Source: Stigmatella erecta
Lineage (GTDB): Bacteria > Myxococcota > Myxococcia > Myxococcales > Myxococcaceae
Assembly (NCBI RefSeq): GCF_900111745.1
Contig: NZ_FOIJ01000006.1
Location: 248,001-312,000 of the forward strand
DNA length: 64,000 bases
Direction of reading: 5' to 3'
The translations under genes and the position numbers were made by a program. Shown here in pieces: positions 13,748 to 57,400 of the stretch; position 1 is the first letter of the stretch; each line of letters begins with the position of its first letter. The notes under the pieces were generated by a model. That model was not told the origin of the DNA and did no database searches. It worked only from the letters and a program-made list of their open reading frames with translations.

Positions 13748-13793
13748 CTCTCTACTCCTGTCCACCGTTGAAGGGTGATGCCGGGTTGTCCTC

Positions 13794-13840: not shown

Positions 13841-13870
13841 CTTTGTACTCGTGCCCCTCTAGCCGAGGGC

Positions 13871-17293: not shown

Positions 17294-18015
17294 GGAGGAA
17301 GACGGTGCTGGTAGGTTTGGCGGGAGGACATCTGCCGATACCGCTCATTCTCTTGTTGATTGGTGCGCTTTGGCCTACCTCTCCCGGAATCACGCCGGGA
17401 GGCAGAAGCATCAGCCCTTTTCTCGATACAAAGATGCGCACCAGGTTGAGCACCTATCGCCGACAGTGCGGCCCCAGCCGTCCCTGTGAGGCACCACGGG
17501 GCTGTGTCTGGGACACTCGGATCTTCACGCAATACTGCACTGACAGTCAGTGCCTGACGGCTCTGCAGTACGCGCGGGGGCAGGCCTGCCGGTCCATTGC
17601 GACCGAAGGAGAAGGCCCTCTGGTGCGGTTCTGCGTCCCCGTTGGCAAACGGCAAAAAGGGGAACGGTGCCTAGCGCTCGCGAAGGATTTGGAGGCGGCG
17701 TGCGCGGCCGGACTGCTTTGCGGAGGTAAGGAGGGCTGATGTGCGCGGCCATGCCAGAGCAGCGCCGTGGACTCCCGTCCCGCCGGCTTCTTCTGTGCAG
17801 AGACAGCCCCAGAGCCCGTGTGCATTCCCTCCTGTGAGAGGCGGGAATGCCCGGCCGGGCAGCAATGCATCCGGTATGAGGAATCCGTCTCCGCATGCGC
17901 CGAGGTCCAAGGCAACAACTGCCAGCGCACTCCGTGCCCAGAGAGCCTGCGGTGTCAGGTCGAGTATGAGCGGACACGCCCTGGACAGGTGCGGATGAAA
18001 TGTTCCTCGCGGTGA
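17290..18015 (+). pseudogene. Cys-rich secreted/membrane protein split by in-frame TGA
   Basis: One continuous reading frame of 242 codons interrupted by a TGA at 17737-17739. Before it: GTG start in a GTGA overlap, a hydrophobic N-terminal helix (PLILLLIGALW), then a Cys-rich part (QCGPSRPCEAPRGC, CAAGLLCGG). After it the same frame continues with equally Cys-rich sequence (CARPCQ, GFFCAETAPEPVCIPSCE, CPAGQQC) to the TGA at 18013. The spacing of Cys pairs runs straight across the stop, which looks like a Trp TGG changed to TGA. With the broken gene in front, this suggests a decaying operon. Function unknown. Confidence 0.65.
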
Positions 18016-28599: not shown

Positions 28600-29064
28600 A
28601 TGTCTCTCGATTATCGCTTCAGCATCGCCTCCGCATTGGAGGCTCAGGAGCTCCTGAAACTGGCCCTGGCGGAGCTGCACTTGACGCCCGAAGAAAGGCT
28701 CACATCAGAAGGCGAGCCCATGGAAACCCAGGGGCCTGGCTTTCTCGTGAGCGCAGGCCCCACCTCTGCCTTGGAGAAGGCAATTCTCCAGGAAGGACTG
28801 AGCATCGAGCCCACGGCGGCGCTCTCTTTCTCCATCGACAAGTTCTCGGACAGGGCGCGGGCTGTCACCGCCATGCTCCAAGCAGGGCTGGCGGTGCTGC
28901 GTCATGTTCCGGGTGACGCGGGCCTCGTCTTCAACGGGGAGACCGTCCTGCTCCTGCGGCAGGGCGGGCACCTCTTTCTGGATGCACGCACCGGCCTCTG
29001 GACTCCAGAGCGGCTGAAGCTGGTGAACATGCCCTACACGCAGAAGGATTTCCCCGTGTTGTAA
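28600..29064 (+). CDS. Probable immunity protein for the Sit-like toxin
   Basis: A 154-aa soluble protein without signal peptide, starting 19 bp after the toxin gene with GAAGGA upstream of the ATG. Toxin-immunity adjacency and small cytoplasmic size are as expected for SitI immunity proteins. The layout (MSLDYRFSIASALEAQELL at the N terminus, then GDAGLVFNGETVLLLRQGG) looks like the SitI3-type family. It should bind and block the nuclease domain. The call rests mainly on position. Confidence 0.72.
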   Translation: MSLDYRFSIASALEAQELLKLALAELHLTPEERLTSEGEPMETQGPGFLVSAGPTSALEKAILQEGLSIEPTAALSFSIDKFSDRARAVTAMLQAGLAVLRHVPGDAGLVFNGETVLLLRQGGHLFLDARTGLWTPERLKLVNMPYTQKDFPVL

Positions 29065-42932: not shown

Positions 42933-43101
42933 GGCGTTTCTCCTCCCAGGCAGGGTGAACCCAACGAGCCCTTCAGACAGCACTGCTGCACTAATTCAGT
43001 AGAGACGGATTCTGAATGCCCCCTCCGTGCCAGTCCAGAAAAAACGGCCAGACCCGAGTGAACGGGCTTTTGGTGCCTCAGGACCGGGTACGCTCGCGCG
43101 G

Positions 43102-43743
43102 ATGCGGATGAGGCTTCTTGCCCTGCTCTGTTTCGTATCCTTCGGACTGACAGGATGCGCGTCCACCTCACCCAACCGCTCCGAACCTGCGGCTTACGGT
43201 CTCATGGAGGGCACGCGCGCATGGGTGAGAGGCCCCTGGGACGAGATACGACCCTCCACGAATATTGACGACGTGATTGATCAGCTCTGTCCCGCCGTCA
43301 TGAAGCAACCTGGGGCGACCCTCCGCGACTACGGCCAAGAGTACTGTGGGCTCCTCTACACCCTGGATCGGAAGCTCTATTACGCCAGCAAGCCTTCACC
43401 TCTCGGCAACTCCACGCAGGCGGGCGCGGCGCGGCGCAAGACGTGCTACCCGCCACGCTATGTCGTAGACGCACGTGGACAAGCCTCCCCCATCGCGGAT
43501 TTCCACAGCCACCCCTGGGCCCCTTCGGGCATGTCCGAGCAGGACCGAAGGCTTCGAACCCAGCTCTGGCAGATACGCATTCAGTTCGACACCCGCTGTA
43601 CTCTCCAAAAACTCATTCCCTACGTGGGCACGGACCGGCCGGGTGAAGTCTATGAGCGGCAAGGCATGAGCTGGAAACTGGTTGGCCTCATCGAGCCCAA
43701 GAACAAAGCCACGGGGCTCATCACCTTCATCGAAACGCCCTGA
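43102..43743 (+). CDS. Lipoprotein with JAMM metalloprotease motif
   Basis: A 213-aa lipoprotein (lipobox TGC, Cys19). Residues 135-148 form an exact JAMM zinc motif, H-x-H-x7-S-x2-D (DFHSHPWAPSGMSEQD), and Glu80 in QEYCGLLY is placed like the conserved upstream Glu. JAB/MPN domains are zinc isopeptidases or peptidases, and several polymorphic-toxin modules use this fold. It is 3 bp from the next lipoprotein gene, so it starts a three-gene unit. The substrate is unknown. Confidence 0.8.
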   Translation: MRMRLLALLCFVSFGLTGCASTSPNRSEPAAYGLMEGTRAWVRGPWDEIRPSTNIDDVIDQLCPAVMKQPGATLRDYGQEYCGLLYTLDRKLYYASKPSPLGNSTQAGAARRKTCYPPRYVVDARGQASPIADFHSHPWAPSGMSEQDRRLRTQLWQIRIQFDTRCTLQKLIPYVGTDRPGEVYERQGMSWKLVGLIEPKNKATGLITFIETP

Positions 43744-43746
43744 AGC

Positions 43747-44196
43747 ATGTCTCGAACGTCCTGGACGAACCGCCCCCTGCGCGTCACCGCATTCCTCTTT
43801 CTCTGCATCGCCCTGCCCGTGTGCGCCCCCTCGCGTCCACAGCTCTATGTGCCGCCCGAGGAAGCCGCTTGGTTCAAGTTTCCAGCGGACCTCCCGGCCC
43901 ATGCGGACGCTCAACGCATCCCAGGCGCCACGGCCGCCGCCATTCAGCTCGCCATGGATGACTTCCTTCCCCAGGACCGCGAACCATCCCGTGGAGAAAA
44001 CGCTCAAGCCATCTGCCTGCAACAGCGTCAGTCCTACGATGTCGCCGCCACCCCCGGGCCCGGCAAGGTGATGTGGATCACCCTCATGTTGAGTCCAGGC
44101 GCCTGTACCCACGGCCCAGGGCCGCTCATCGACATCGGCGCGACCTATGCGGTGGATACCGGCACCTGGAGCATCCTCGCGGTCAGAGCGCCATGA
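43747..44196 (+). CDS. Small lipoprotein or secreted protein, paralogue A
   Basis: A 149-aa exported protein; its hydrophobic N terminus ends in LPVC, a weak lipobox. It carries the segment RIPGATAAAIQLAMDDFLP, almost repeated in the next gene, and a C-terminal TYAVDTGTWSILAV. Family not recognised. Its stop overlaps the next start (ATGA). Confidence 0.75.
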   Translation: MSRTSWTNRPLRVTAFLFLCIALPVCAPSRPQLYVPPEEAAWFKFPADLPAHADAQRIPGATAAAIQLAMDDFLPQDREPSRGENAQAICLQQRQSYDVAATPGPGKVMWITLMLSPGACTHGPGPLIDIGATYAVDTGTWSILAVRAP

Positions 44197-44645
44197 ACCC
44201 AGCTTCGAATTCACCCAGGCCTTCCTTGTTCAACCTCGCCATGGCGGGGCTCCTCCTGAGCGCGTGTCAGGCCACGCACCGGCCCATTCCCCATGCCCCA
44301 CCGGAACAGGCCGCCCAGGTGGTCTTTCCTCCGCTTCCCAACGCGCAGTCCAAACGCCTTCCAGGGAACATGGCGGCATCCATTCAACTGGCCATGGAGG
44401 ATTTTCTGCCTTGGGGTGCCCCGTCCGCCCCAGCGCCCATCCCGCAAGCGCCTTGTTTGTCCCACCGGGAGTCTTACGAGGTGGTGGCGGTCCCGCTTCC
44501 GGAGGGGGTCATGCTGGTTCGCTTCGAACTTGATCCCAAGGCATGTGCTCTCACCGAGAACGTCTTCGACGTGACCACCTATGCCATCGACGTACGAACG
44601 ATGCGGATCCTGTCTCGTGAAACCGTGACCCGCCCCGTTCCATGA
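44193..44645 (+). CDS. Small lipoprotein, paralogue B
   Basis: A 150-aa lipoprotein (lipobox SAC) paralogous to the preceding protein: RLPGNMAASIQLAMEDFLP and TYAIDVRTMRIL occupy the same positions. The ATG at 44193 lies in an ATGA overlap. The pair may be partners or immunity/accessory factors for the JAMM lipoprotein, which is inference from linkage only. Confidence 0.75.
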   Translation: MNPASNSPRPSLFNLAMAGLLLSACQATHRPIPHAPPEQAAQVVFPPLPNAQSKRLPGNMAASIQLAMEDFLPWGAPSAPAPIPQAPCLSHRESYEVVAVPLPEGVMLVRFELDPKACALTENVFDVTTYAIDVRTMRILSRETVTRPVP

Positions 44646-44674
44646 CCCCCTGAAGCAAAACGCTCGCTCCGCCC

Positions 44675-46924
44675 TTATTTCCCGCTCTTGCGGACGGAGA
44701 TCTCCACGACGAAATCCGGAACCTCCTCCTCGCTCCGCTCGCTCCGGGCCAGCACCTCGGGCCGGTCGTCTCCGCTCCACAGCCCCAGCAAGTCGTAGGT
44801 CAGCCACTGGGACAGGGATCGCGCCACCCGCTGCGCGCCCTCGCGGGACACCGAGGAGAGCGAGCCCTGCGCCTCCATCAGGCCGCGCACCAGCCGCGCG
44901 GGCACCATCCAGCACTCGGCCCTCAGCGCGGGCGGCACCAGGAACAGGCAATACGCCGCCTCGCTCCGCGCCAGCAGCCCGTCCACCTGCTCCCGGCCCA
45001 TCCGGAGGTTCGGCGCCCATTGCCCCTCACCCCAGGGCTCCAGCTTCCGCGCCCGCACGAGCACCGCGCGCTTCGTCCGGAGGAAGCCGTCCACCTCCAC
45101 GCTCAGCACGAACATCAGCTCCACGCCCGAGCGCCCGGGCGCCTGCGCGTTCTCAACCGGCTCCGGGCCCCGGCGGAAGCGCAGGTCCAGCGCCAAGGGA
45201 ACCGGCTGTCCCTGCGTGAGCAGCAGCCCCAGGTCCGAACGGATGCTCTCGAACTCGTGCCGCAGGTCCTCCAGCAACCGGGTGACGAGCGCGGCCTCCT
45301 CCTCCCGGCAGTGCTGCGGATAGCGTGCGGAGAAGTCCCGCTCCACCCGGCTGAACGCTCCCAGGAGCAGTTCCTCCAGGTCCCGGTCCCGCAGCCACGT
45401 CCGGCCCCCGCCGAGCGTCATCGCCCCCGAGGCGCGCAGGTGGCGCAAGGCCCCCGTCAGCGTCGCGGGCGTGTGCCCCCCGGTGGCCTGCTCCGCCCCC
45501 GCCTCCAGCCACGCGTGGATGGCCCGCACGCGGAAGCGCACCCGCGTGGAGGGATGGTCGCCGAGCCTGCGCAGCAGCCGGCGGTCCGTGGACGTCTTCA
45601 CCAGCGAGAGCGTCACCAGCTCGGCCTCGGAGGCCGCCGCGTCCGGCGCGCACCACAGGAAGAACTCCATCGCCGCCTTGCGCAGCACCGGCTTCTTCAC
45701 CGCCCGGCGCGTGACTTCCTTGCGCCACGCGGCGAGCGCATCGGCCCCCGGCCGGCGCTCCGTCTCGAAGCGGGGCCACAGGTCCGCGCACTCCTCCGCC
45801 AGCCAGCACAGCACCTCCGCCACGGGCAGGCCGCTCACGCGCTCGCGGGCCCGGTTGCGGCGCTCGAAGACATCCTCCAGCCCCTGGCGCAGCGCCAGCC
45901 GGAAGAGGCACTCCTCCACCCAGAGCAGCACGAGCGCCAGCCCGGGCTCCTCCTTCGGCTTCAGGTGCTCCCAGCACGTGTCCGCCACGCGCCGGTGCCG
46001 GCCGATGTCCGGCGCCCCCGAGAGGCCCGCCACCAGCGCCTGCAACGCGCCGCGCAGCCCCTGCACGGGCGACTCGAAGTACACCAGCAGCTCACTGAGG
46101 TTCTCCACGGCGGCCAATGGTCCTCCCTCTTCGAGGTTCCGGGCGAGCAGCAAGCTGGCGCGCGTGCACCAGCGGGCCTCGCCCTTGCCCTTCGCATAGC
46201 AGCCCAGAAAGCCCCGCAGCTCGGCCTGGCTGTCCGGCGCCGTCACCACCTGGAAGAGCTTCTCCTCCAGGATGTCGCGGCACTCGCGCCAGGGAAGCTT
46301 CGAGGCCCGCTCCCGGATGAAGCCCACGAGCTTGTACCGGCCCTCGCGCAGGTGGGGCAGCAGCATCCGCAGCTGGTCGAGCCTCCCCGTGAGCCGCTTC
46401 GCCGGGCCGAGGAAGACCTTCAGGTCCACCTCCACCTCCCCCTGGAACCGCAGCACCCGGCCATCGAACGTGCAGCCCACGCCGCCCACCAGCGACAGCA
46501 GCGCCTCCGGGTGGCGCTTGAGGTAGCGCAGCACCACCTTGGAGAGCTCCGCGGACACCTGGCGCGTGAGCGGGGTGAGCGCCTCGTCCGGGCCCTCGGC
46601 CTTCAGGCCCTGGAGAAGCTGCCCTTGCCGGACGAGCAGCCGCTGGAGGAGCTGCGCCGGCGGCTCCGAGTAGGGCCACAGCAGCTCGCCGCAGTGGCTC
46701 AGCAGGAACGCCAGCTCGCCAGCGGAGCGGGGGCCCGCCTCCAGCCGGGACCAGGTGGCCACGCGCGCTATCTCCCGCTCATCCAGGGAGGCCCGCTGCG
46801 CCCACGCTCCGAGCTGCTCCGCCCACTGGGGCCGCGCGGCCAGGACGGCCTCGCGTGGGGCGGCCACCACCTGCTCATAGAGGGCCTGGAGGGACGCAGG
46901 CCACGTGTCATTCCCGGGAAGCAT
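44675..46924 (-). CDS. Large hypothetical protein
   Basis: A 749-aa cytoplasmic, largely helical protein with no family I can name with confidence. The last 190 residues (VELMFVLSVEVDGF, KRAVLVRARKLEPW, AYCLFLVPPAL) follow a strand pattern reminiscent of PD-(D/E)xK nuclease-like domains, but the catalytic Lys position reads Arg, so this is weak. The G+C is as high as the backbone, unlike the neighbouring defence island. The ATG at 46924 is chosen over an upstream frame that reads through the 29-bp repeat. Confidence 0.7.
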   Translation of the reverse strand: MLPGNDTWPASLQALYEQVVAAPREAVLAARPQWAEQLGAWAQRASLDEREIARVATWSRLEAGPRSAGELAFLLSHCGELLWPYSEPPAQLLQRLLVRQGQLLQGLKAEGPDEALTPLTRQVSAELSKVVLRYLKRHPEALLSLVGGVGCTFDGRVLRFQGEVEVDLKVFLGPAKRLTGRLDQLRMLLPHLREGRYKLVGFIRERASKLPWRECRDILEEKLFQVVTAPDSQAELRGFLGCYAKGKGEARWCTRASLLLARNLEEGGPLAAVENLSELLVYFESPVQGLRGALQALVAGLSGAPDIGRHRRVADTCWEHLKPKEEPGLALVLLWVEECLFRLALRQGLEDVFERRNRARERVSGLPVAEVLCWLAEECADLWPRFETERRPGADALAAWRKEVTRRAVKKPVLRKAAMEFFLWCAPDAAASEAELVTLSLVKTSTDRRLLRRLGDHPSTRVRFRVRAIHAWLEAGAEQATGGHTPATLTGALRHLRASGAMTLGGGRTWLRDRDLEELLLGAFSRVERDFSARYPQHCREEEAALVTRLLEDLRHEFESIRSDLGLLLTQGQPVPLALDLRFRRGPEPVENAQAPGRSGVELMFVLSVEVDGFLRTKRAVLVRARKLEPWGEGQWAPNLRMGREQVDGLLARSEAAYCLFLVPPALRAECWMVPARLVRGLMEAQGSLSSVSREGAQRVARSLSQWLTYDLLGLWSGDDRPEVLARSERSEEEVPDFVVEISVRKSGK

Positions 46925-46973
46925 GTCTCCGTGCGCGCCCGCCCGCGCCAGCAAGGGCCTGGGCCCACCTTCC

Positions 46974-47002
46974 TTGAACCCAGCGGGCCTGTCCAGCGCC
47001 GG
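46974..47002. repeat. 29-bp direct repeat, left copy flanking the island
   Basis: Matches 53619-53647 in the same orientation with 2 mismatches (positions 5 and 11 of the repeat); the last 18 bases, gggcctgtccagcgccgg, are identical. It lies upstream of the 749-aa protein gene and about 140 bp before vsr. Likely boundary or attachment-type sequence of the defence island. Confidence 0.75.
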
Positions 47003-47144
47003 GAGGCACGACCCCTGGGACACGGGAAGACCGCATTTCCCCCACCACGGACGCGCGGCTCGGCGCTCACCTCCTGCGGGGGTTGGACAAGAGGGGTCCG
47101 ATGCTTAGAACTACTCCAAGCTGACTCCTGCCGCCCGGTCCACC

Positions 47145-47666
47145 ATGGACACGCTGACCCCCAAGGAACGCAGCGAACGGATGTCCCGGGTCCGAGGCAA
47201 GGACACGAAGCCGGAAATGCGCGTCCGCCGCCTCGTCTCCTCGATGGGCTACCGGTACCGCCTCCAGTACAAAAAGGTACCCGGACGTCCGGACCTCGCC
47301 TTCCCTGGCCGTCGCAAGGTCATCTTCGTCCACGGCTGCTTCTGGCATCGCCATCCCGACCTCTCCTGCCAACTCGCACGGCTTCCGAAGTCCCGGCTTG
47401 ACTTCTGGCTCCCTAAACTGGACGGGAACCGCGCGCGCGACCTCCGCAAGGAGCAGGAACTTCAGGAACTCGGATGGTCCGCGCTCACGATCTGGGAATG
47501 CCAGTTACGCGACGAAGAGGCACTTCGGGATGTCATCCGCGCCTTCCTCGACCCATCGGAACCAGGAATTTCCGCGCGGAACGTATCCTCCAGAAGGGGC
47601 CACACCCCTGTTTCACCCTGTGGCACACCGCAAAATTCTTGGACTTCAGGGGCGCCATCGACATGA
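47145..47666 (+). CDS. vsr: Very short patch repair endonuclease Vsr
   Basis: A 173-aa Vsr family mismatch nicking enzyme that repairs T:G mismatches arising from deaminated 5-methylcytosine. Family blocks are MSRVRGKDTKPE, PGRPDL with catalytic Asp50, and FVHGCFWHRHP with His63 and His68. The C terminus beyond about residue 140 is an extra tail. It is directly upstream of the cytosine methyltransferase, the classic pairing, and opens the five-gene island. Confidence 0.93.
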   Translation: MDTLTPKERSERMSRVRGKDTKPEMRVRRLVSSMGYRYRLQYKKVPGRPDLAFPGRRKVIFVHGCFWHRHPDLSCQLARLPKSRLDFWLPKLDGNRARDLRKEQELQELGWSALTIWECQLRDEEALRDVIRAFLDPSEPGISARNVSSRRGHTPVSPCGTPQNSWTSGAPST

Positions 47667-47675
47667 ATCCGCCCC

Positions 47676-48848
47676 ATGAACTCCGTCGAACTGTTCACTG
47701 GGGCTGGAGGGCTCGCCCTTGGGACGCACATCGCCGGTTTCCGGCATCGTGGCCTCGTTGAGTGGGACGACGATGCCTGCGAAACCCTTCGTAGAAATGT
47801 GAAAGCCAGAGCGTTGCCCGACATCCATGACTGGAAAGTCCACCAGGCCGATGTGCGGATGCTCAAGTTCGACATTTTTGGAAACAAGGGGGGGGTGGAC
47901 CTAGTAGCAGGAGGCGCGCCGTGCCAACCCTTCAGCCTTGGGGGGAAGCACCAAGCACAAGAGGACGCCCGCAACATGATCCCGGACTTTGTGCGGGCGG
48001 TGCGCGAACTCCAGCCACGCGCCTTCATCATGGAGAACGTGAAGGGACTCATGCGTGAGAGCTTCCGCAATTACTTCGAGTACATCCGCCTCCAGCTCAT
48101 CAACCCCGACCTAGTCATCAAGAAAGACGAAACCTGGCGCGAGCACCACTATCGCCTTGAGAAGCTCGAAACCAAGGGGAACAAGTCACTAAAGTACAAC
48201 GTTGTGGTCGAGTTGCTTAACGCTGCTGACTACGGCATCCCTCAAACGCGCCAGCGGGTCTTCTTCGTCGGCTTCCGAGAAGACACTGAGCTGGCGTGGC
48301 ATTTCCCCAAGCCTACCCACAGCCGGGCCGCCCTGATGCACGCCCAGTGGGTCACCAGTACCTACTGGGAAAAGCATAGAATGCCTCGGCCCAAGGAGGT
48401 GCCGGCCTATGCCGTGCGTTGGACGAAGGGAAAGGCCGAGCCTCTTCCACCTGGAATTGCCTGGAAAACGATCCGGGATGCATTCGATGGCTTGCCGGAT
48501 CCACGTGACGAACGAAAAGCGGCCTCTATCCCGAACCACCGCTTCATACCTGGAGCACGCTCCTACTACGGGCATACGGGCAGCCCGTACGACTTACCCG
48601 CCAAAACCCTGAAGGCCGGTGTGCATGGAGTCCCAGGTGGGGAGAATATGCTCGCTCTGCCTGATGGCAGCGTGCGGTACTTCACCGTACGCGAAGCGGC
48701 CCGTCTTCAAACTTTCCCGGATACCTGGCACTTCGAAGGATCCTGGGGCGAGACGATGCGCCAACTTGGCAATGCGGTACCAGTAGAACTAGCGGCGGTC
48801 GTGGCCAGGAGCGTGTTGGAGGAGCTGCGCGGTCAGGGGAGCCACTGA
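47676..48848 (+). CDS. DNA (cytosine-5) methyltransferase
   Basis: A 390-aa C5-cytosine methyltransferase. Motif I ELFTGAGGLALG, motif IV GGAPCQPFS with nucleophile Cys83, motif VI MENVKG with Glu120, motif VIII QTRQRVFFVG, motif IX REAARLQTFPD and motif X QLGNAVPVELA are all present in order. The target recognition region lies about residues 200-330; the sequence it methylates cannot be inferred. It should protect host DNA from the nuclease part of the island. Confidence 0.94.
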   Translation: MNSVELFTGAGGLALGTHIAGFRHRGLVEWDDDACETLRRNVKARALPDIHDWKVHQADVRMLKFDIFGNKGGVDLVAGGAPCQPFSLGGKHQAQEDARNMIPDFVRAVRELQPRAFIMENVKGLMRESFRNYFEYIRLQLINPDLVIKKDETWREHHYRLEKLETKGNKSLKYNVVVELLNAADYGIPQTRQRVFFVGFREDTELAWHFPKPTHSRAALMHAQWVTSTYWEKHRMPRPKEVPAYAVRWTKGKAEPLPPGIAWKTIRDAFDGLPDPRDERKAASIPNHRFIPGARSYYGHTGSPYDLPAKTLKAGVHGVPGGENMLALPDGSVRYFTVREAARLQTFPDTWHFEGSWGETMRQLGNAVPVELAAVVARSVLEELRGQGSH

Positions 48849-48905
48849 TCCTTATGATCACGGCGCATTGAGGTGATAAGCTCCAGCCCTCATTTCTTCG
48901 GGGGC

Positions 48906-51290
48906 ATGCTGTTGCCGTCACCAAATTCGCTCAACATCAAGCCGTCTCCGCGCATCCTGCGAATCCTCGGCGACATCGAGTTCGAGCCGTGGCAGTGCAT
49001 CGCGGAACTGATCGACAACTCGTTCGACGACTTCCTTGAGGTCCACAGAAGCGGCACGCATTGGCCAGACGGCTTCAAGGTGTCCGTGACGCTCCCAGAT
49101 CGAGCCGCCGCTGACGCCACGGTCCTGATCGAGGACAACGGCCGCGGGATGAGCATCGAAAAGCTGAACAACGCCGTACGCGCTGGCTGGTCTAGCAACG
49201 ACCGGTTCACCAAGCTGGGGCTCTTCGGGATGGGGTTTAACATCGCCACCGCGAGGCTTGGTGGCGTTGCCCGTGTCTTCACTACACGTGTTCAGGACAC
49301 GGAGTGGGTCGGAGTCGAGATCGATCTCGACAGGATCAAGGACGACTTCGAGGTCCCGCTCATCCGAAAGCCCAAGGCTACCTCAAGTGAGCATGGAACC
49401 ATCATCGAGATCACGCGCCTTGAACCTACTCGAGCCGGTTGGTTGTCGAAGAACGCGACGAAAATCCGAGCCACTCTAGGCGACGTCTATTCCTATCTCC
49501 TGGCGAGCATGCCCTTCGGTCTCTTTGTCGATAACGTCAAGGTACAGCCGAAGCGGCCATGTATTTGGGACGAAACCCGGGCGATCACACACGGGTCTGG
49601 ATCCACCGCCGAACAGATTCCTGCTGTTTTGAAAATCAACGAACGCCTTCCAGATGCGGAAGCGTGCCTTACCTGTGGGCGATGGCAACCCCCCCAACTC
49701 GGCAAGTGCTCGGAGTGCGGAGCAACCACGCTGGAGGCGCGCAGTAGGCGAATTCACGGATGGCTTGGGATCCAGCGACACCTTCACAAGACAGAGTTCG
49801 GAATCGACTTCCTTCGGAACGGCCGGAAGATCCTGCGTAACGACAAGAGATTGTTCTCTTGGACCGATTCGAATGATCCGCTTGCTTCGCCGGAGATTGA
49901 GTACCCCGTGGAATTGGGGCAAGGAGGAAGGATTGTTGGCGAGATTCACCTCGACTTTGTACCAGTGAATTACCAGAAGAACGCGTTCGAATGGAGTGAT
50001 CGACAGTGGATCTCTGCTGCACGGTTTCTCCGAGGAGGAGGGCCCCTCCTTCCAAGACGTGCACACCAACTCGGTTATCCCCCAAACGACTCCCCTCTGG
50101 GAAAACTTCATCGCGGTTATCGTCGGAATGACCCCGGCTATCGGTATCTCGTCCCTGGCAATGGCAGCGGTCCAATTCACGCCGACACTCTTGAGTGGCG
50201 TGACAAATTCAATAAGGGAGATCCCGACTATCAGGCGGATACCAAGTGGTGGGAAGCCGTCGTTTACCACGAGACAAAGCTCGCTCACGGGACAAACAAT
50301 AGCGCCACAACAGGTAGCGACGTACTAGGGGAACTCGGACTGGGTGCATCCCCAACACCAACAGGTGTGGCGAACACACCAAGTACACCCGATGTGGCCG
50401 CACAGCCAGCAGGCAATGATGCAAAAGGTACGGCATTAAAGGGGAAAGTCCCGAGCGTTCCCGTTCCAGAGACGGAAAAACAGCGTGCTGACCGTCTTCG
50501 CTCGTCCGGAACAGGCGTGCCCCCATTATCGAAGGACTTTGGGTTGCCCGAGCTTGGCGGGGCATTCGAAGTCATGACATTTGCCGTGCGTGAAAAACTA
50601 GTTGATTCGAATGGTGTACCCACCCCTGTGTGGGTTTGGAGGGAATCGGGTAAGCGCCACCTCGCATTCATCGATTATTCGCACCCAGTGCTTCAGGCAT
50701 TTCCCGTAGATCCTGGGGTCTTGCTCACGATCGAGATCGCCCAGCATCTACGAGTGCGGAACGACTTGAAGTTATCTGCGACTCAAATTGCTTCTCAGTT
50801 GCTCGTGCAGCGTCTCAGTGATCTTCGTGTTGAACAGCCCTACCTTGCTGGGCAGGCTCGCGAGCTGTTCGCCGATATGCGTCAGCGAATGTCCGCAGCC
50901 ATAACGGCGAACCCCGATCGGGCATGGCAATTTCTCACCATCGAGGAGCGAGACCGAACCGAGACCAATATGGTTGTCGCGGGTGCCTCGGGTACGCTGG
51001 AGGACTTGCAGAAGAGCGGCGACTTCCTGCTCCATGTTCCAGCAATGTTCATCCCTCGACTCGTGGAGGAATGGCCCGAGGCCTTCTTTGACGGGAAGGT
51101 CTTCAAGGGAGGCTACTCGATGGTAAAAACCGCAGTCGGAAGACACATTGCTGTTGGACGCGTCGTCTCCTATCTTTACGATGCTGCCGTCGTGACTGAA
51201 GACGTAAAGCTTAATTCCACTTCGCTCTCGCGGTGTGCCTTGAGCATCCAACTCTTGCTCACCGAACTGGCTCGGGGCGGCACACAGTGA
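48906..51290 (+). CDS. MORC-type GHKL ATPase
   Basis: A 794-aa protein with an N-terminal GHKL (Hsp90/MutL/MORC) ATPase: ELIDNSFDD with Glu34 and Asn38, DNGRGM (77-82) and LFGMGFNIATA (106-116). A CxxC...CxxC zinc ribbon sits at Cys254, 257, 268 and 271. The C-terminal half contains a Pro/Ala-rich linker and a second domain of unknown type. MORC/MutL-like ATPases have been described computationally in restriction-modification islands alongside methylases, helicases and Vsr. The start could be GTG 48873; ATG 48906 begins at MLLPSPNSLN, where the conserved part starts. The helicase overlaps its stop. Confidence 0.85.
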   Translation: MLLPSPNSLNIKPSPRILRILGDIEFEPWQCIAELIDNSFDDFLEVHRSGTHWPDGFKVSVTLPDRAAADATVLIEDNGRGMSIEKLNNAVRAGWSSNDRFTKLGLFGMGFNIATARLGGVARVFTTRVQDTEWVGVEIDLDRIKDDFEVPLIRKPKATSSEHGTIIEITRLEPTRAGWLSKNATKIRATLGDVYSYLLASMPFGLFVDNVKVQPKRPCIWDETRAITHGSGSTAEQIPAVLKINERLPDAEACLTCGRWQPPQLGKCSECGATTLEARSRRIHGWLGIQRHLHKTEFGIDFLRNGRKILRNDKRLFSWTDSNDPLASPEIEYPVELGQGGRIVGEIHLDFVPVNYQKNAFEWSDRQWISAARFLRGGGPLLPRRAHQLGYPPNDSPLGKLHRGYRRNDPGYRYLVPGNGSGPIHADTLEWRDKFNKGDPDYQADTKWWEAVVYHETKLAHGTNNSATTGSDVLGELGLGASPTPTGVANTPSTPDVAAQPAGNDAKGTALKGKVPSVPVPETEKQRADRLRSSGTGVPPLSKDFGLPELGGAFEVMTFAVREKLVDSNGVPTPVWVWRESGKRHLAFIDYSHPVLQAFPVDPGVLLTIEIAQHLRVRNDLKLSATQIASQLLVQRLSDLRVEQPYLAGQARELFADMRQRMSAAITANPDRAWQFLTIEERDRTETNMVVAGASGTLEDLQKSGDFLLHVPAMFIPRLVEEWPEAFFDGKVFKGGYSMVKTAVGRHIAVGRVVSYLYDAAVVTEDVKLNSTSLSRCALSIQLLLTELARGGTQ

Positions 51291-52954
51291 CCACCGCTGA
51301 GTTTTTAACCCCGGAGCGCCTGCTCGCTGGTGGTCCTCGAAGATTCAATCTGGCGGTCGAGCGCCTCCTGCTTCATCTCGGCTTTGACGACATCAGATTG
51401 ATCGACGGTGCTGGTGATAGCGGTGGCGACATCCTCGCGCACAAAGACGCGGGCTCGTTCGTCTTCCAGTGCAAATGGACCACCGGCACTCATATCGGCC
51501 GGGCTGCTGTCGACGAAGTGGAGACGGCGCGAACGAAGTACGCCGTCGACCGTGCCGTGGTCGTGACAAATGCTCTCCCAGACACCGCCGCTCAACGACG
51601 AGCGGACTCTCTCGGCGACATCGGAGCCCGAGTGGAGTTCTGGACGAATGCACACCTCCGGCGTCTCTCAGCGGCGATTCTGGATCAGTGCCCCTCTGGA
51701 ATCGTTCCTCGTCCATACCAAGCCGACGCCATCCAAGCGCTCGAAAAAGACCTGAGTGAACGTAAGCGAGCGCTCCTGATCCTGGCGACAGGTCTCGGGA
51801 AAACCCTTATCGGCGGAGAAATAGTCAGGCGGTATTTACTCAGGCACCCGCAGGACCGCGTTCTGGTCGTAGCGGCGATGAAGGACCTTGTTCAGCAACT
51901 TGAGCGGGCTTTCTGGCGCCACCTCCCCAAAAACGTCGCGACGCAGGTGCTCACCGGAGACCAGAAACCCGTGTCGTTTGATGGTGTCACGTTCGCCACG
52001 GTCGAATCCGCCGATAAGGCCGTGTTCGACGGCTATCGGCCAGCGCTCATCATGGTGGACGAAACGCACCATGTCGCGGAAGAGGGAACTTTCAAGCGAC
52101 TGCTCGATGCCTGCGAGCAGCTTCCACAGTTCGGCGTTACAGCCACGCCCTGGCGCGGTGATCACTTTGATATCTCCACGCACTTCGGCGAACCTAGCTA
52201 TAAAATGGGAATCGCCGAAGGCATGGCGAAAGGCTATCTCGCCCAAGTCGACTATCAAGTCTTCGTGGACAACATTAACTGGGAGGCGGTGCGCGAGGCG
52301 AGCAAGGAGGGATATACCCTCAAGGAATTGAATTCAAAACTGTTCTTGCCGCAGCGGGACGAGGCGATCCTTGAAATGCTTTGGGAGGCCTGGAGCAGGA
52401 CGGTTCAGCCTCGGGCCATCCTCTTCTGCAGAACGATTAAGCATGCCGAGACCATCGCTGACTTGTTAGCGCGATATTCGAACAGTTGGTCGAATGCGAC
52501 GTGCTTGCATACAGCCATGGGGAAGCGGGAGCGCGAACTCGCACTGAGCGCGTTCCGTTCTGGACGCATTCCGATTCTGACCGCCGTCGATATCCTCAAC
52601 GAAGGCGTGGACGTCCCTGACGTCAACATCATTGGGTTTCTCCGCGTCACCCACAGCAGACGCATTTTCGTCCAGCAATTGGGGCGAGGCCTTCGCATCA
52701 AGGAAGGGCTCAAGGAACGCGTTCACGTACTAGACTTTGTCACGGATATCCGGAGGCTTGCGGCGATCGTCAACTTCCGCCGGGAACTTGAGGTGGCGCG
52801 CGCCCCCATAGAGACCCTAATGCTCGACAGCGCCGCGCGCATCTCCTTCTCGGACGAGAACGTCGGAGGCATCATGGAAGCGTGGCTCAAGGATGCCGCG
52901 AACGTGGAAACTGCCATGGACGAGGCTAAGCTACAGTTCCCCGAGGTATCCTGA
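51287..52954 (+). CDS. Mrr-like nuclease fused to superfamily II helicase
   Basis: A 555-aa protein. The N terminus is a restriction-endonuclease-like domain of the Mrr type (Asp48 in SGGDIL; Gln61-x-Lys63 in FQCKW). The rest is a DEAD/DEAH-like superfamily II motor: ATGLGKT (167-173), VDETHH (258-262), TATPWRG, and QQLGRGLR (motif VI). The GTG at 51287 overlaps the MORC gene stop (GTGA). It probably translocates on DNA and cleaves foreign or wrongly modified DNA. Confidence 0.88.
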   Translation: MTTAEFLTPERLLAGGPRRFNLAVERLLLHLGFDDIRLIDGAGDSGGDILAHKDAGSFVFQCKWTTGTHIGRAAVDEVETARTKYAVDRAVVVTNALPDTAAQRRADSLGDIGARVEFWTNAHLRRLSAAILDQCPSGIVPRPYQADAIQALEKDLSERKRALLILATGLGKTLIGGEIVRRYLLRHPQDRVLVVAAMKDLVQQLERAFWRHLPKNVATQVLTGDQKPVSFDGVTFATVESADKAVFDGYRPALIMVDETHHVAEEGTFKRLLDACEQLPQFGVTATPWRGDHFDISTHFGEPSYKMGIAEGMAKGYLAQVDYQVFVDNINWEAVREASKEGYTLKELNSKLFLPQRDEAILEMLWEAWSRTVQPRAILFCRTIKHAETIADLLARYSNSWSNATCLHTAMGKRERELALSAFRSGRIPILTAVDILNEGVDVPDVNIIGFLRVTHSRRIFVQQLGRGLRIKEGLKERVHVLDFVTDIRRLAAIVNFRRELEVARAPIETLMLDSAARISFSDENVGGIMEAWLKDAANVETAMDEAKLQFPEVS

Positions 52955-52956
52955 CG

Positions 52957-53542
52957 ATGGCGAAAAAGGTCTCGAACAAAAAGCATGAAGCCGAAGTCGT
53001 CCGGCGTATCTACGCGGATGCTCAAAGCCTCGATTGGGAACATCGCTCGTCACGAGAGCACACAGCTCAGTATGCCCGATGGCTTGCCGACTCCGAAGTG
53101 GGGGGGGATACTGTCGGTGTGGATGTCGCGGGAAGAGCAACGTGTCTGGCTGAAGGACGGGCCCATGAAAGAATTCGCTCGTGCACTGGCTGGCGAGGGG
53201 CCATATGCCTATCACCTCAGTGAACATCCTCGCAGCCCGAGTACCGTCGTGGCGCGAGTGCTGGGAGATAGGTGGGCACCGATCGCAGGCTCCAGTGATG
53301 TAAAGCCGCTTCGTTGCGACGCAAGTAATGGCTCCCAGATTGTGCGCGTCATCTGGGGACCAGCAAAAGACTTCAAGCATCTCCTGTGGGCCGCTTTAGA
53401 GGCTTGGGAGGAGACCCCTAAGCGCGCTCTTCGCTTAGCTGTGTTCGACACTGTCGCGAGCCCTCTCTCCCGAAGGGAGAAAGAAAGATTCGAGAAACTC
53501 GCTGGCCGCTGCCAAGTCGATGTTGCCTTCATCCGGTTGTAG
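52957..53542 (+). pseudogene. Small island protein frameshifted at a G8 tract
   Basis: Two overlapping frames join into one plausible protein of about 194 aa: MAKKVSNKKHEAEVVRRIY... up to WLADSEVGG in the first frame, then ILSVWMSREEQRVWLKDG... to VDVAFIRL in the next. The switch falls exactly at eight consecutive G (53100-53107); seven G would restore one frame. As written, translation from 52957 gives an 88-aa product ending at 53223. It begins 3 bp after the helicase gene and is the last gene of the island. It could be phase-variable, inactivated, or a sequencing error. Function unknown. Confidence 0.7.
53100..53107. repeat. Homopolymeric G8 tract
   Basis: Eight G in a row inside the last gene of the defence island, exactly where its reading frame breaks. 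Long G runs are slippage-prone. Confidence 0.9.
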
Positions 53543-53618
53543 AAGCCGTGAGCCGTAAAACCGGGGCAGGCTCAGACTACAACCACAGCAAGAAGCTCTG
53601 AGCCAGCGTCCTCCAAGT

Positions 53619-53647
53619 TTGACCCCAGAGGGCCTGTCCAGCGCCGG
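53619..53647. repeat. 29-bp direct repeat, right copy flanking the island
   Basis: Right-hand partner of 46974-47002 (27 of 29 bases identical, same orientation), 76 bp after the last island gene and 24 bp before the end of the minus-strand EF-hand gene. Confidence 0.75.
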
Positions 53648-53670
53648 CGCACGGCCTGCCTCCGGGACGC

Positions 53671-54531
53671 CTACGGGGCCTGGCGGCCTTCCTCGATGCG
53701 CTGGCGGATGGCCGCCGCGAGCGCGTCCTTCTCCCCGGCGCTCAGCACCCCATCCCCGTCCGTGTCGTACCGCGCGATGACCGCCGCCCGGCGCTCCCGG
53801 GCCTGGGCAAGCCCATCCGCCCGGAGCTGTACCCGCTCAGCGGCCTCCAGCGACCCATTGCCGTTGCGGTCGTACTGGGCCAGCACCTCCTGGTACTTCG
53901 CCACGAGCCGGGCCCGCGCCGCCTGCCGCGCGGCCTCCCGCTCGGCGGTATCCAGGAGGCCATTGCCGTCGGCGTCAAAGGCGTCGAGGGCCTGCTGGTG
54001 CAACCGGGTGCAGCGCTGCTCGAAGGCAGCTACGAGCGCCGCGCGCTCCTCGTCCGACAGGCGGCGATCCCCGTCCTCGTCGAAGGCCCAGCGGATGAGC
54101 AGGAAGGCATTCGCGCGCAGGCGCCACGCGAGCCGCGCGAAGCGCGGACGCACCCGGGTGAGGTCGAGATCCTTCTTCAGCTCGGCCAGCTCGCTCCGGT
54201 TCAGGCGGCCGTCCCCATCCGCATCGTACGCGTCCCGCACCTCGCTCCGCTTCGCGCCGAAGTCACAGACGGCGCCCGCTCCCTCGGGCACGGGGCCGGT
54301 GGCGTCCGCATCCTCTTCCACGGTGGTCATCAGCTCCGCATCGCTCGCGAAGCCCACCGACTCCTCCGCGCCCGCCTCCCCCGGCTCTTCCGAACTGGAG
54401 AGGGCCGCCGTGGCCTCGCCGAGCGCCAGCGACTCCTCGTCGAAGGAGGCCTCATCGCCGCAGCCCACGCTGCCCAAGACGAGAGAGGAACAAAGGACCG
54501 CACCCAGCATCCGGGAACGCACTGGCATCAT
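53671..54531 (-). CDS. EF-hand calcium-binding lipoprotein
   Basis: A 286-aa lipoprotein (lipobox VGC) with five EF-hand loops: DADGDGRLNRSE, DEDGDRRLSDEE, DADGNGLLDTAE, DRNGNGSLEAAE and DTDGDGVLSAGE. Most keep the 1-3-5-12 oxygen ligands, so it should bind calcium outside the cytoplasm. An acidic N-terminal linker follows the lipid anchor. It is divergent from the repetitive secreted protein. Confidence 0.9.
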   Translation of the reverse strand: MMPVRSRMLGAVLCSSLVLGSVGCGDEASFDEESLALGEATAALSSSEEPGEAGAEESVGFASDAELMTTVEEDADATGPVPEGAGAVCDFGAKRSEVRDAYDADGDGRLNRSELAELKKDLDLTRVRPRFARLAWRLRANAFLLIRWAFDEDGDRRLSDEERAALVAAFEQRCTRLHQQALDAFDADGNGLLDTAEREAARQAARARLVAKYQEVLAQYDRNGNGSLEAAERVQLRADGLAQARERRAAVIARYDTDGDGVLSAGEKDALAAAIRQRIEEGRQAP

Positions 54532-54720
54532 GGTGTTGGTTTCCTGTGAGCATCGCGCGGCCCCCTTTGGCCGCCGCGATGACTCGAAACCCAGCCTGCT
54601 GAAAATGGTTGCGGGCGTTCGCTGAATCCGGGCCGCGCCCGCTTTTTCTGCATGCGCCCGCAACTTCTCGGACCTGTCCGGGTTGAAGCAGGACATCACG
54701 CCTTTTTCACGGAGCCTTGG

Positions 54721-55131
54721 ATGAACACCCGAATGATTCGCTGGACCCTGCTGGCCTCGCTGTCCCTGTCCTCCCTGGCGCTGGCGCAGACGCCCCAGCA
54801 GCACGCCCGGCAGGAGCTGCGTGAGGGCCGCCAGGAGGCGCGCCAGGAGAAGCAGGAGGGCCGGCACGAGGCCCGCGAGGAGCGCCTGGAGGGCCGCCAG
54901 GAGGCGAGCGACCTCCGGCACGAGGCACGCAGCGAGGCCCGCGCCGAAGCCGCCGCGGGACACCCCGCCGCGGCCCGGCAGGCGCTGCGCGAGGGCCGCC
55001 AGGACGCCCGGGCCGCCCAGCAGGAAGGCCGCCAGGAGGCCCGCGAGGAGCGCCAGGAGGGCCGCCAGAACGCGCGCGAGGAGCGCCAGGAGGGCCGCCA
55101 GAACGCGCGCCAGGCGCTCCGGGAAAACTAG
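54721..55131 (+). CDS. Secreted Glu/Arg/Gln repeat protein
   Basis: A 136-aa protein with a Sec signal peptide (cleavage near ALA-QTP) and a mature part made almost wholly of charged helical repeats, E-G-R-Q-E-A-R-E-E-R and variants, likely one long helix or coiled coil. Two perfect 33-bp units lie at 55045-55110. The gene sits between two EF-hand proteins. No family recognised. Confidence 0.75.
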   Translation: MNTRMIRWTLLASLSLSSLALAQTPQQHARQELREGRQEARQEKQEGRHEAREERLEGRQEASDLRHEARSEARAEAAAGHPAAARQALREGRQDARAAQQEGRQEAREERQEGRQNAREERQEGRQNARQALREN

Positions 55132-55150
55132 GCGGCCCTCCCGCCCCGAA

Positions 55151-57400
55151 TCAGGGCGCGGCGGGAGGCACGGCCGGCGCCGGAGGGGCCGCCGTGGGCA
55201 CCAGCGCGCCACACGTGGCGCTGGACAGCCACTCCCGGCCACACGCCAGGCGGACCAGGGGCTCGCGGAACTGCCAGAGCAGGGCGAAGAGCACGAAGAG
55301 CACCACCAGGAGCTTCACGCCGCCCGGAATCTCCTCCTCCGTGTCCTCCTCTTCCTCGTCGCCCCGGAGGTTCTCCAGGCTGGTGCGCAGCCGGTCCTGG
55401 TGGTCGATGGTGGCCCCCTGCGGCAGCCGGGGCTTGCGGGTGATGAGCCGGGCCAGCTCCCGCGTGAGCATCAACCGGTCGTTGAGCGCCCAGCCCGAGC
55501 CCTCCAGCAGCAGCGCCAGGTTGCGCTTGCGCAGCTTCAGCCACCCGAGCAGCCCCGAGGGCACCATGACGATGGCGGCGATGGTGATGGCCGCCGAGAG
55601 CACATCCCCCAGCGACAGGGTGCGCAGCTGGGTCACGATGAAGGCCAGCGCCGAGCCGAGGGCCGCGAACGCGATGCCTCCGGCCACGACAAGCCCTCCG
55701 ATGCCACCGCCCGGCGCCGCCGCCGCGGGAGCCGGTGCCGCCGCCGCGGGCGGGGGCGTGGCGGCCGCCTGGACCGAGTGCGTATAGCCCTTCTCCAGCT
55801 GCTCATCGAAGACCTTGTCCCCCGAGGACGCCAGGGCCTCCACCTTCGAGGTGATGAACCTGCCGATGCGCTGGAAGGGCATCGTCATCGCCTCCCACAG
55901 GGAGACGGGCTGGCGAATCACCTGCACCACGATGGCGTCGTGCTCCTGGCCATTCACGTCGTGGAAGATGCCGCGCTTGCCCACCTCCAGGCCGGTGCTC
56001 CGGCCGCGCGTGACGGGCACGGCCACCTCGTAGCCCGGCACCCCGTCCTTGGGCGTCACCTTCACGTACAGGATGCACGTGGTGCCCTGGGCACACAGGG
56101 CCGCGTGCTCGTCGTGCGCGCGCACGAGCACCGACAGCGTGTACTTGCGCCCGCCGAGGATGAGCGTCCCCTGCTCGTAGAGCGCATGCCGCTTCGCCGT
56201 GTAGAGGTCCGGCATGCTGATGAAGTTGTTGGCGAACGTCAGCAGCCACCGCTGGTAGAGCAGGAGCCGCTCCAGCCCGGTGATGGCCTCCAGCTCCTCC
56301 TTGATCGCCAGGTCCGCCCGGCACGCCGCCTCGATGGCGTCCAGGTCCGCCTCGGCCACGGTGGACAGCTCCGTCAGCATGCCCCGCACGGGGTTGGCCT
56401 CGAACGCGGCCTGCCAGGCGAGCACCGCATCGGCCTGCGCGGAGAGCTTCCGCCACGCCGCGTCGCTCAGCGTCTCCGCCTCCCCCAGCGTGGGCACCAC
56501 CACCTCGCGGTGAAACGCCTCCAGCACCTCGAAGGCGGGGCCGCGGTAGAGCCGGGACCAGGTGAGCACCCCCGCGGGGTTCACCCCCGCGATGGGCAGC
56601 AGCGCCGCGGCCTTCTCCAGCGCGGCAGGGTCTCCCAGCACGCCCTCCACCCGGCCCACGGGCAGCTTGAGGCTCGCGGCCGCATCCGGCTGGGCCGCCA
56701 CCAACCGGCACTGCAGGAAGTACGCATCCAGCAGCGGCTTCACCTCGCGGATGCGCTGGGCCCGCGCCAGGCTCGCCTCGCCCCACACGTGCACGGCGTC
56801 CTTCGTGGCCTGGTGGGCCAGGAACGCGGCCCGCTCCACGCGGAAGCGCTGCACCATGGGCAAATCGATGCCCGGCTGGCCCGCGCGGCTCTTCACCTCC
56901 GGGAACGAGGCCATGATGCGCGTGGCCAGGGGGCGCACCGGCTCCGGCAGGAACGCGGGCTCGACGATGCCGTCGCCGTTGAGGCCCGCCTTGCGCATCA
57001 CCGGCTCGCTGGCGCGCACCTGCTCCAGCGAGATGCGGCCCGGGTCCGTGGACTGCAACGCCGCCAGCACGCGCTGCGCCGCGGCGCGCAGCGGGGCGCC
57101 CTCGGCGGACAGCGCGCTCAGCTCCAGCACGTCGCTCTTGGCGTCCACGCCCTGGCGCGACTGGAGCATCCGCGCCGTGTACTCCACGGCCGCGCGCAGC
57201 TCCGCCACGCGGACGCGCGCGTTGCCATCGGTGTCCAGCAGCGCGAGGAAGTGCGCGTCGCAGTGCAGCCCCTGCACGGGGCATGCGGTGGCCATCCACT
57301 GCGTCTCGGGAATGCGGATGGCCTCGACGAGGGCGGCGAAGTCGGGAATGTCGACCTGAAGGGAACCGCCGTGGCGGCGGTACACGAGGGAAGCAGCCAT
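55151..57400 (-). CDS. EF-hand-containing membrane protein, hypothetical
   Basis: A 749-aa protein. The N-terminal 500 residues are soluble and include EF-hand-like loops (LLDTDGNARVRVAEL near residue 55, GLNGDGIVEP near 140). A Pro/Ala linker is followed by three hydrophobic helices (around residues 560-620 and 705-725) with an acidic DEEEEDTEEE segment between them. No known family. The start at 57400 has no obvious ribosome site. Confidence 0.75.
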   Translation of the reverse strand: MAASLVYRRHGGSLQVDIPDFAALVEAIRIPETQWMATACPVQGLHCDAHFLALLDTDGNARVRVAELRAAVEYTARMLQSRQGVDAKSDVLELSALSAEGAPLRAAAQRVLAALQSTDPGRISLEQVRASEPVMRKAGLNGDGIVEPAFLPEPVRPLATRIMASFPEVKSRAGQPGIDLPMVQRFRVERAAFLAHQATKDAVHVWGEASLARAQRIREVKPLLDAYFLQCRLVAAQPDAAASLKLPVGRVEGVLGDPAALEKAAALLPIAGVNPAGVLTWSRLYRGPAFEVLEAFHREVVVPTLGEAETLSDAAWRKLSAQADAVLAWQAAFEANPVRGMLTELSTVAEADLDAIEAACRADLAIKEELEAITGLERLLLYQRWLLTFANNFISMPDLYTAKRHALYEQGTLILGGRKYTLSVLVRAHDEHAALCAQGTTCILYVKVTPKDGVPGYEVAVPVTRGRSTGLEVGKRGIFHDVNGQEHDAIVVQVIRQPVSLWEAMTMPFQRIGRFITSKVEALASSGDKVFDEQLEKGYTHSVQAAATPPPAAAAPAPAAAAPGGGIGGLVVAGGIAFAALGSALAFIVTQLRTLSLGDVLSAAITIAAIVMVPSGLLGWLKLRKRNLALLLEGSGWALNDRLMLTRELARLITRKPRLPQGATIDHQDRLRTSLENLRGDEEEEDTEEEIPGGVKLLVVLFVLFALLWQFREPLVRLACGREWLSSATCGALVPTAAPPAPAVPPAAP

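Follow-up and report, generated by a model that had tools for sequence, protein, structure and literature searches.

What is a run of five genes of low guanine-plus-cytosine (G+C) content doing in the genome of Stigmatella erecta, and do the five belong to one system? We have analysed a window of 64,000 nucleotides (contig NZ_FOIJ01000006.1, positions 248,001 to 312,000), in which positions 47145–53542 carry a Vsr endonuclease, a C5-cytosine methyltransferase, an ATPase of MORC type, an Mrr nuclease–helicase fusion and a fifth protein (gene 5, g5). An earlier note on this DNA had called the run a MORC-type restriction island and could not place the fifth protein. The same set of genes is found again in many other genomes, and the island is therefore not a chance assembly. 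On sequence comparisons we think it reasonably probable that it is a mobile, ATP-driven restriction-modification defence of MORC type, built around an ATPase akin to human MORC proteins. Its features are as follows.

47145–47666, + strand: Vsr, very-short-patch-repair endonuclease (PF03852, 9.7e-29; TIGR00632, 136.6 bits, cut-off 97.85)
47676–48848, + strand: C5-cytosine DNA methyltransferase (PF00145 DNA_methylase, 6.5e-59; TIGR00675 (dcm) above cut-off; PADLOC MTase_II)
48906–51290, + strand: GHKL/MORC-type ATPase, reading frame open from GTG 48873 (HATPase_c_3, 2.2e-12; Bergerat motifs intact)
49665–49718, + strand: zinc ribbon C-x2-C-x10-C-x2-C within the ATPase (four cysteines in 16 of 19 homologues)
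51287–52954, + strand: fusion of Mrr nuclease and superfamily 2 (SF2; Rad25/RadD-like) helicase (Mrr_cat 1.2e-13, ResIII 2.8e-26, Helicase_C 4.1e-18)
52957–53542, + strand: gene 5 (g5), of an unnamed family, its frame interrupted in eight G (G8) at 53100–53107
46985–47002, no strand: left copy of an 18-base direct repeat, where congener homology stops
53630–53647, no strand: right copy, an exact repeat of the left

The open reading frames (ORFs) at 47145–47666, 47676–48848, 48873–51290, 51233–52954 and 52985–53542, all on the + strand, lie head to tail as the earlier note described, and Pfam domain matches bear out its identification of the first four products; all four cysteines of the zinc ribbon that it had proposed were found. 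The search of the five proteins against defence and family models that it recommended gave domains for these four and no convincing match for gene 5. The G+C content of the genes, from Vsr to gene 5, is 62.5, 59.5, 56.7, 58.7 and 57.8% (window 68.7%), in agreement with the claimed drop from a backbone near 70%, and the 60-base sample at 50161 reported at 52% indeed has 31 of its 60 bases as G or C. One-kilobase windows from 47001 to 54000 range from 0.565 to 0.649, the two flanking windows on either side lying at 0.726–0.741 and 0.711–0.728; G+C is also low further left of the island (0.624 and 0.664 at 43001–45000). Two details had to be corrected. The GTGA overlap, placed by the note at two junctions, occurs at one of the four, between ATPase and helicase (51287–51290): the helicase ends at 52954, before gene 5 starts at 52957, and the junctions of Vsr with methyltransferase and of methyltransferase with ATPase are likewise without overlap. 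The ORF at 52985–53542, taken for the native fifth protein, is a part of it, the native start being ATG 52957 with the frame broken in the G8 run. The ORFs of Vsr, methyltransferase, ATPase and helicase are all unbroken, and the most likely start of the helicase is GTG 51287, not 51233.

Searches with the ATPase gave 7 loci in genome contigs, 6 plasmids and 30 loci in a viral collection, with no match in the annotated phage genomes; within the family it occurs in 3 of 96 genomes, that of S. erecta included. Five of the six plasmid matches were compared, the sixth (H6, 22.6% identity) being left out. Our tally takes the 30 loci with an ATPase match of at least 400 bits (14 from genomes or plasmids and 16 from the viral collection, L061–L076), counts a methyltransferase at 100 bits or more, and contains near-duplicates (L063/L064/L068, L066/L067, L073/L074), so that the counts are non-independent. 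Outside it stand L077–L090 (14 viral loci in which the match to the ATPase hidden Markov model (HMM) is weak or missing and no helicase or g5 was found), L091–L099 (7 repeat counted contigs; L093 and L094 end before the ATPase), and L118 and L119 (G804 and G928), which were added later.

The conservation of gene neighbourhood that the earlier note asked to see is there. The helicase lies downstream of the ATPase on the same strand in 28 of the 30 loci, and directly after the helicase comes g5 in 23 of the 27 loci that allow the test, which are drawn from plasmids, viral-collection contigs and bacterial genomes (L008, L062 and L072 are cut by contig ends at this point). A C5-methyltransferase is present in 26 of 30, so the proposal did not fall on the ATPase and helicase never being found beside a methylase; Vsr is present in 19 of 30. 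All five genes occur together in 19 loci, and the order of ATPase, helicase and g5 is constant in all of them, whilst Vsr and methyltransferase stand before, after or on both sides of these three, on either strand, in eight arrangements. Because the core order is conserved while the other two vary in this way, ATPase, helicase and, usually, g5 form a fixed core with Vsr and methyltransferase as movable partners. The gene order of the window recurs in L055 and L057, the latter with an annotated GIY-YIG gene between methyltransferase and ATPase.

Correlations of identity, which come from non-independent pairs and are a description rather than a test, are highest within the core (helicase–g5 0.89, ATPase–helicase 0.83, ATPase–g5 0.81) and reach 0.72 between Vsr and methyltransferase, Vsr against the core giving 0.40–0.44 (0.40 with the ATPase). 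The methyltransferase correlates with the core at 0.63–0.76, intermediate to high values that blur the picture of two modules. Individual loci differ in the same respect: L055, in G063, is 86% identical to the window in Vsr, 63% in methyltransferase, 33% in ATPase and 41% in helicase, and the values for L009 are 62, 63, 77 and 84%. The ATPase of L008 is 76% identical to that of the window.

The ATPase has the conserved residues E34, N38, D77 and G81, the GLFGMGFN region and G164–T165, and combines a GHKL with an S5 domain. A Pfam scan at E ≤ 0.1 gave HATPase_c_3, HATPase_c and a sub-threshold DUF6869 only. The zinc ribbon cysteines are present in 16 of the 19 sequences of alignment A4 and are missing also from L059, outside that alignment. 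By sequence, the only PDB matches at E ≤ 0.1 are MORC3 and MORC4 (6.5e-6 to 0.021, MORC3 the best). An AlphaFold2 model (mean predicted local distance difference test (pLDDT) 79.7, predicted template-modelling score (pTM) 0.57) aligns with mouse Morc3 at Z 20.5 over 290 residues (3.7 Å, 21% identity), tied with the Hsp90 protein Hsc82 at Z 20.4 (12% identity); residues 10–456 of the model cover the alignments to Morc3, MORC4, Hsp90 and topoisomerase VI. Since Foldseek places HtpG (1.3e-13) and Hsc82 (1.4e-12) above MORC4 (6.4e-12) and Morc3 (1.4e-11), the suggested MORC kinship rests more on sequence than on fold. The MORC-specific S5 motif is GhXhhpXXRhl (PMC2292703); here it reads GIDFLRNGRKI, which fits at 7 of the 8 constrained positions, and a basic residue stands at one of the hydrophobic positions in 18 of 19 sequences. 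"MORC-type" is thus a fair name, and membership of MORC in the strict sense is less certain, because the motif fits at seven positions of eight.

The likely target of the methyltransferase can be approached through a plasmid relative. Plasmid pDrdI of Deinococcus wulumuqiensis 479 has a single PF00145 gene, directly before ATPase, helicase and g5, and the window enzyme is 47% identical to its product, the sole C5-methyltransferase of the plasmid. Conserved stretches are also found between two late motifs, which we take to be VIII and IX. Exactly one 5-methylcytosine enzyme is on record for pDrdI, M.DrdVII, with the motif YCGCGR; this motif is given as the authors' unpublished data, and their Table 1 has no cloned mark for the enzyme (PMC6430315). 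With one such gene on the plasmid and one such enzyme on record, the gene would by elimination be that of M.DrdVII, and since the window enzyme is 47% identical to this presumed M.DrdVII, a target of CGCG type is likely but unproven. Elsewhere in the genome of S. erecta another two Vsr genes (L002, L003) exceed the Pfam cut-off.

Gene 5 gave nothing above noise in Pfam, PADLOC, NCBIfam or PHROGs, either as the broken ORF or as its intact relatives, and by sequence its best PDB matches are noise as well (E 0.31 with the single sequence, 0.16 with a profile). A model of the L009 protein (pLDDT 91.7, pTM 0.82) predicts six helices followed by a β-β-α-β-α-β domain. In VIA-align, where a Z below 8 may reflect merely a common arrangement, this C-terminal domain matched a CdiA-CT toxin chain (Z 7.6), EndoMS (7.5) and XisH (7.3 and 7.2), with PaqCI (6.5), EcoT38I (5.9) and Ras/Rab GTPases (from 5.7 down) in further rows; in the predicted structure it resembles nucleases weakly, with a PD-(D/E)XK fold as a candidate. 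Foldseek found no PDB match at E ≤ 0.001 and one viral match (4.9e-4, TM 0.35). The catalytic acidic residues of PD-(D/E)XK enzymes were not found in this domain, no column of which is acidic in 80% or more of either 11 or 17 sequences. Of the charged positions of g5 that are conserved in at least one of the two alignments, R62, K66, K71, R75, K116, K140, R175 and R184 are basic, and D67 and E72 are the acidic exceptions. As the conserved charges are nearly all basic and the C-terminal domain has no conserved acid, we infer that g5 is probably a basic, DNA-binding, non-catalytic subunit. The fifth protein can be placed, as third part of the core. In L073 and L074 a 251-residue ORF (10273–11028) occupies the place expected for g5 and has no match to the g5 HMM; the ORF that follows it in L074 resembles, as an impression from its sequence, an A/G-specific glycosylase.

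The break in gene 5 was located by comparison with relatives. The ORF from ATG 52957 reads MAKKVSNKK...WLADSEVGG and then departs from the native sequence, which resumes in the frame of ORF 52985–53542. An HMM built from the relatives' alignment A1, the G063 protein included, matches the S. erecta genome with positions 1–49 in one frame and 44–192 in another, and finds gene 5 whole in G059 and G063. In L009 both pieces map end to end in a single frame (4969–5118 and 5119–5550), and gene 5 is an intact single ORF in all 11 relatives checked. The break falls in the eight G at 53100–53107, where relatives have a conserved V/I-G-G in mixed codons. The ratio of nonsynonymous to synonymous divergence (dN/dS) against L009, with synonymous sites near saturation, is 0.09 and 0.06 for the two pieces and 0.07 for the ATPase. 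Because both pieces keep a strong purifying pattern, the break is recent, or an error of assembly, or bridged by slippage.

If the break is real, the island could be a remnant in which the core is dead and the Vsr–methyltransferase pair alone works, in methylation and repair. This is possible, though on the doubtful side. A frame break in a gene that is whole in 11 of 11 relatives is what such a remnant would display, and Vsr tracks the methyltransferase more than the core in the identity correlations; however, the other four genes are open, the low dN/dS of the two pieces makes the loss recent or an effect of assembly or slippage, and 4 of the 27 testable loci exist without gene 5.

The helicase raises a different alternative. 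It has the motifs GDSGGD...QCK, ATGLGKT, DETH, TATPW and GRGLR, and the succession of Mrr_cat, ResIII and Helicase_C corresponds to a Rad25-like SF2 helicase fused to a nuclease of restriction-endonuclease (RE) fold. The RadD, XPB and rad25 models are among its NCBIfam matches, none near cut-off, and its matches by structure are SauUSI-like, RadD, XPBII and RAD25. The best PADLOC match is mREase_IV (3.4e-34), confined to the helicase part (profile 217–570 of 945), and the best PDB match is 7clg, presumably SauUSI. With its Mrr-type nuclease domain the protein might attack foreign methylated DNA as type IV enzymes do, the methyltransferase having some other role. We think this unlikely, as the PADLOC match leaves the protein as a whole short of such an enzyme, and, with 26 of the 30 ATPase loci carrying a C5-methyltransferase, such an enzyme would harm its own host unless the sequence contexts differ. 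SauUSI-like and Mrr type IV enzymes share with the island a helicase core and an Mrr-type nuclease domain; the island differs in having a C5-methyltransferase of its own and separate ATPase and g5 proteins.

The island is inserted between host genes. The flanking repeat covers 46 bases at 78% identity, of which the last 18 are exact, and a 21-base pattern around it has two sites in the genome at one mismatch or fewer (both flanks) and two more with three mismatches. Homology to three congeners stops at 47002–47006, within the left flanking gene (44675–47023), which is matched in 60 of 96 family genomes, S. erecta included. In congener G037 window position 47002 joins 55101 with a few bases between. 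An EF-hand gene (53671–55242, − strand) beside the slot is found in G036 and G038 and is absent from the fetched stretch of G037, so G037 is not a pure pre-insertion state. In G036 and G038 the left flanking gene and the EF-hand gene are about 2.9 kb apart; the G036 insert encodes GmrSD_N and HipA proteins (Pfam), and the ORFs of the G038 insert have the same lengths and look nearly alike. The site is a variable slot with other conflict-type genes in relatives, and the island is horizontally acquired and probably mobile. The Pfam scans, which covered the island and some of the flanking proteins but not every ORF, named no recombinase for the 18-base repeats. In the same slot, the GmrSD_N (DUF262) gene followed by HipA at L049:9794–12624, with similar ORFs in L050, may be a separate defence pair.

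A search with g5 alone found 3 of 195 phylum genomes, S. erecta included, the same three as found with the ATPase; a second phylum sample gave 1 of 396, the centre genome itself, and a third 3 of 377, the centre genome plus two not found before, in each of which g5 has helicase, ATPase and methyltransferase beside it. The five-gene system is rare and sporadic. These observations bear on the idea, to us quite improbable, of an operon for repair or chromosome organisation in which MORC, helicase and nuclease together with Vsr are akin to MutL, UvrD and MutH. Vsr and an ATPase of the MutL family do share an operon, and Iyer et al. made the comparison and allowed for some recruitment to repair (PMC2292703), but a sporadic g5, carriage on plasmids, GmrSD–HipA at the congener site and variable partners all speak against it. 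The least probable alternative is phase variation, with G8 tracts in the methyltransferase (47888–47895, frame unbroken) and gene 5 switching modification and restriction: the window has two G8 runs in all, each within a gene of the island, and 314 isolated G8 in 9.21 Mb would lead one to expect about 0.22 per 6.4 kb, but the idea is post hoc, dinucleotide shuffles of the window average 15.2 such runs, so that two are no excess, and 23 g5 relatives have no G or C run longer than six, the two longest in 27 methyltransferase relatives being 8 and 7.

We return to an ATP-driven restriction-modification defence of MORC type, in which division of labour, target sequence and defence role are all inferred. 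The C5-methyltransferase would mark host sites, probably a palindrome of CGCG type as for M.DrdVII, and Vsr would repair the T:G mismatches left by deaminated 5-methylcytosine, limiting the mutational cost. The restriction engine would be the three-protein core. A dimer of the MORC-type ATPase would clamp or loop DNA, driven by ATP, the Mrr-helicase would translocate along DNA without the mark and cut it, and gene 5 would help the core to recognise or hold DNA. In S. erecta the broken gene 5 might leave the core off or reduced, with methylation and repair intact.

Several observations weigh against this. The strongest doubts are that gene 5 is broken here, so that the restriction core is possibly crippled in this genome, and that the helicase is kin to modification-dependent enzymes, its best matches pointing to methylation-dependent ones. 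In the literature searched, no restriction, methylation or protection is reported for any relative that has all five genes. Neither Vsr nor g5 is needed everywhere: 11 of the 30 loci have no Vsr, some of these being truncated at contig ends, and four of the 27 testable for g5 lack it (L060, where the helicase is missing too, and L073, L074 and L075, where it is present). Among the 26 methyltransferases, seven (L065, L069, L071–L074 and L076) score only 108–120 bits and belong to a different subfamily. In L058 ATPase and helicase are separated by an IS3 gene; the methyltransferase of this locus, some 6.5 kb away, adjoins an annotated Eco29kI-type gene, to whose system it may belong. The link to M.DrdVII passes through an elimination to a motif on unpublished data and an enzyme not marked as cloned, and the identity correlations are descriptive.

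A bolder proposal, which we put forward as tentative and rather doubtful, is that MORC-type ATPase, Mrr-helicase and g5 form a single three-subunit restriction machine unlike types I–IV. An ATP-driven MORC clamp would loop or compact foreign DNA, g5 would be a new family whose nuclease-like but dead fold serves as the DNA-reading subunit, and Vsr–methyltransferase pairs would be pluggable. If true, this machine would be a bacterial counterpart for understanding the eukaryotic MORC silencing of foreign DNA.

Restriction-modification operons with prokaryotic MORC proteins were predicted from sequence by Iyer, Abhiman and Aravind in 2008, as the earlier note had pointed out, and DNA looping was proposed by them for the class; the operon class is described in their text (PMC2292703). 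Their Rad25-helicase type has, like the island, a GHKL+S5 ATPase, a Rad25-like SF2 helicase with fused RE-fold nuclease, a cytosine methyltransferase, Vsr and a sporadic, mobile distribution with hotspots; the island deviates in the S5 motif at one of the 8 constrained positions. No new kind of system is thus at hand, the class having been predicted already. Beyond these parts the main text of 2008 names no protein family for the type, although gene 5 may be included in its Figure 2 or supplement. The label "MORC-type restriction island" is upheld by the domains, the conserved neighbourhood, the contents of the congener site and this operon class, and is less secure where strict MORC membership is meant. 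New, as far as our searches show, are the fifth family as part of the core, the behaviour as modules, the link to a methylation motif, the insertion site and the natural frame break in gene 5.

Other known systems resemble the island in part. The presumed M.DrdVII locus on pDrdI likewise has its sole C5-methyltransferase directly before ATPase, helicase and g5; unlike the island it has no Vsr by HMM in a 17.4-kb stretch, and no restriction is reported for the locus in PMC6430315. VcSduA, a Shedu protein with GHKL (paraMORC3), blocks phages, which favours a defence role for the island, and resembles it in a GHKL ATPase that works with a PD-(D/E)XK nuclease; in the available part of the source (PMC12137116) it is a single fused protein with DUF4263, described as a separate system and lacking methyltransferase, helicase and Vsr. 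The island ATPase has no C-terminal DUF4263 in the Pfam scan at E ≤ 0.1. MZA also has an ATPase of MutL/GHKL type, MzaB, which was tried and rejected at 10.4 bits in PADLOC and 15.3 against a cut-off of 850 in NCBIfam; no other Mza protein is among the PADLOC matches listed (the best 25 of 63 for the methyltransferase and the best 25 of 46 for the helicase). The part of the literature searched, open texts without REBASE, holds no test of a MORC–helicase–methyltransferase–Vsr system and no name for g5.

What was a loose neighbourhood is thereby defined as a unit of three core genes, one of them without a match among family models, together with an exchangeable Vsr and methyltransferase. Handles for assays are the intact relatives, the probable methylation motif taken from one relative, and a gene 5 that is broken in nature. 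Eukaryotic MORC proteins act in transposon silencing and DNA compaction, and with a bacterial relative open to assay one could test how that function arose.

Other genes of interest were noted in passing. In a stretch of lower G+C (59–66%) at 9–18 kb of the window, a 1538-residue protein rich in RCC1 repeats and also containing an SBBP repeat (9179–13795, − strand) adjoins a VWD-domain protein (13871–16738). Beside the Deinococcus locus L059, positions 13191–17434 carry annotated nucleotidyltransferase, E2/UBC, Mov34 and SAVED genes that look CBASS-type. In a local dip of G+C in the window, a protein ending in CdiA_C (27153–28580, + strand; PF18451, 6e-18) is followed by a small ORF without Pfam match (28600–29064, + strand), and the two look like a toxin–immunity pair.

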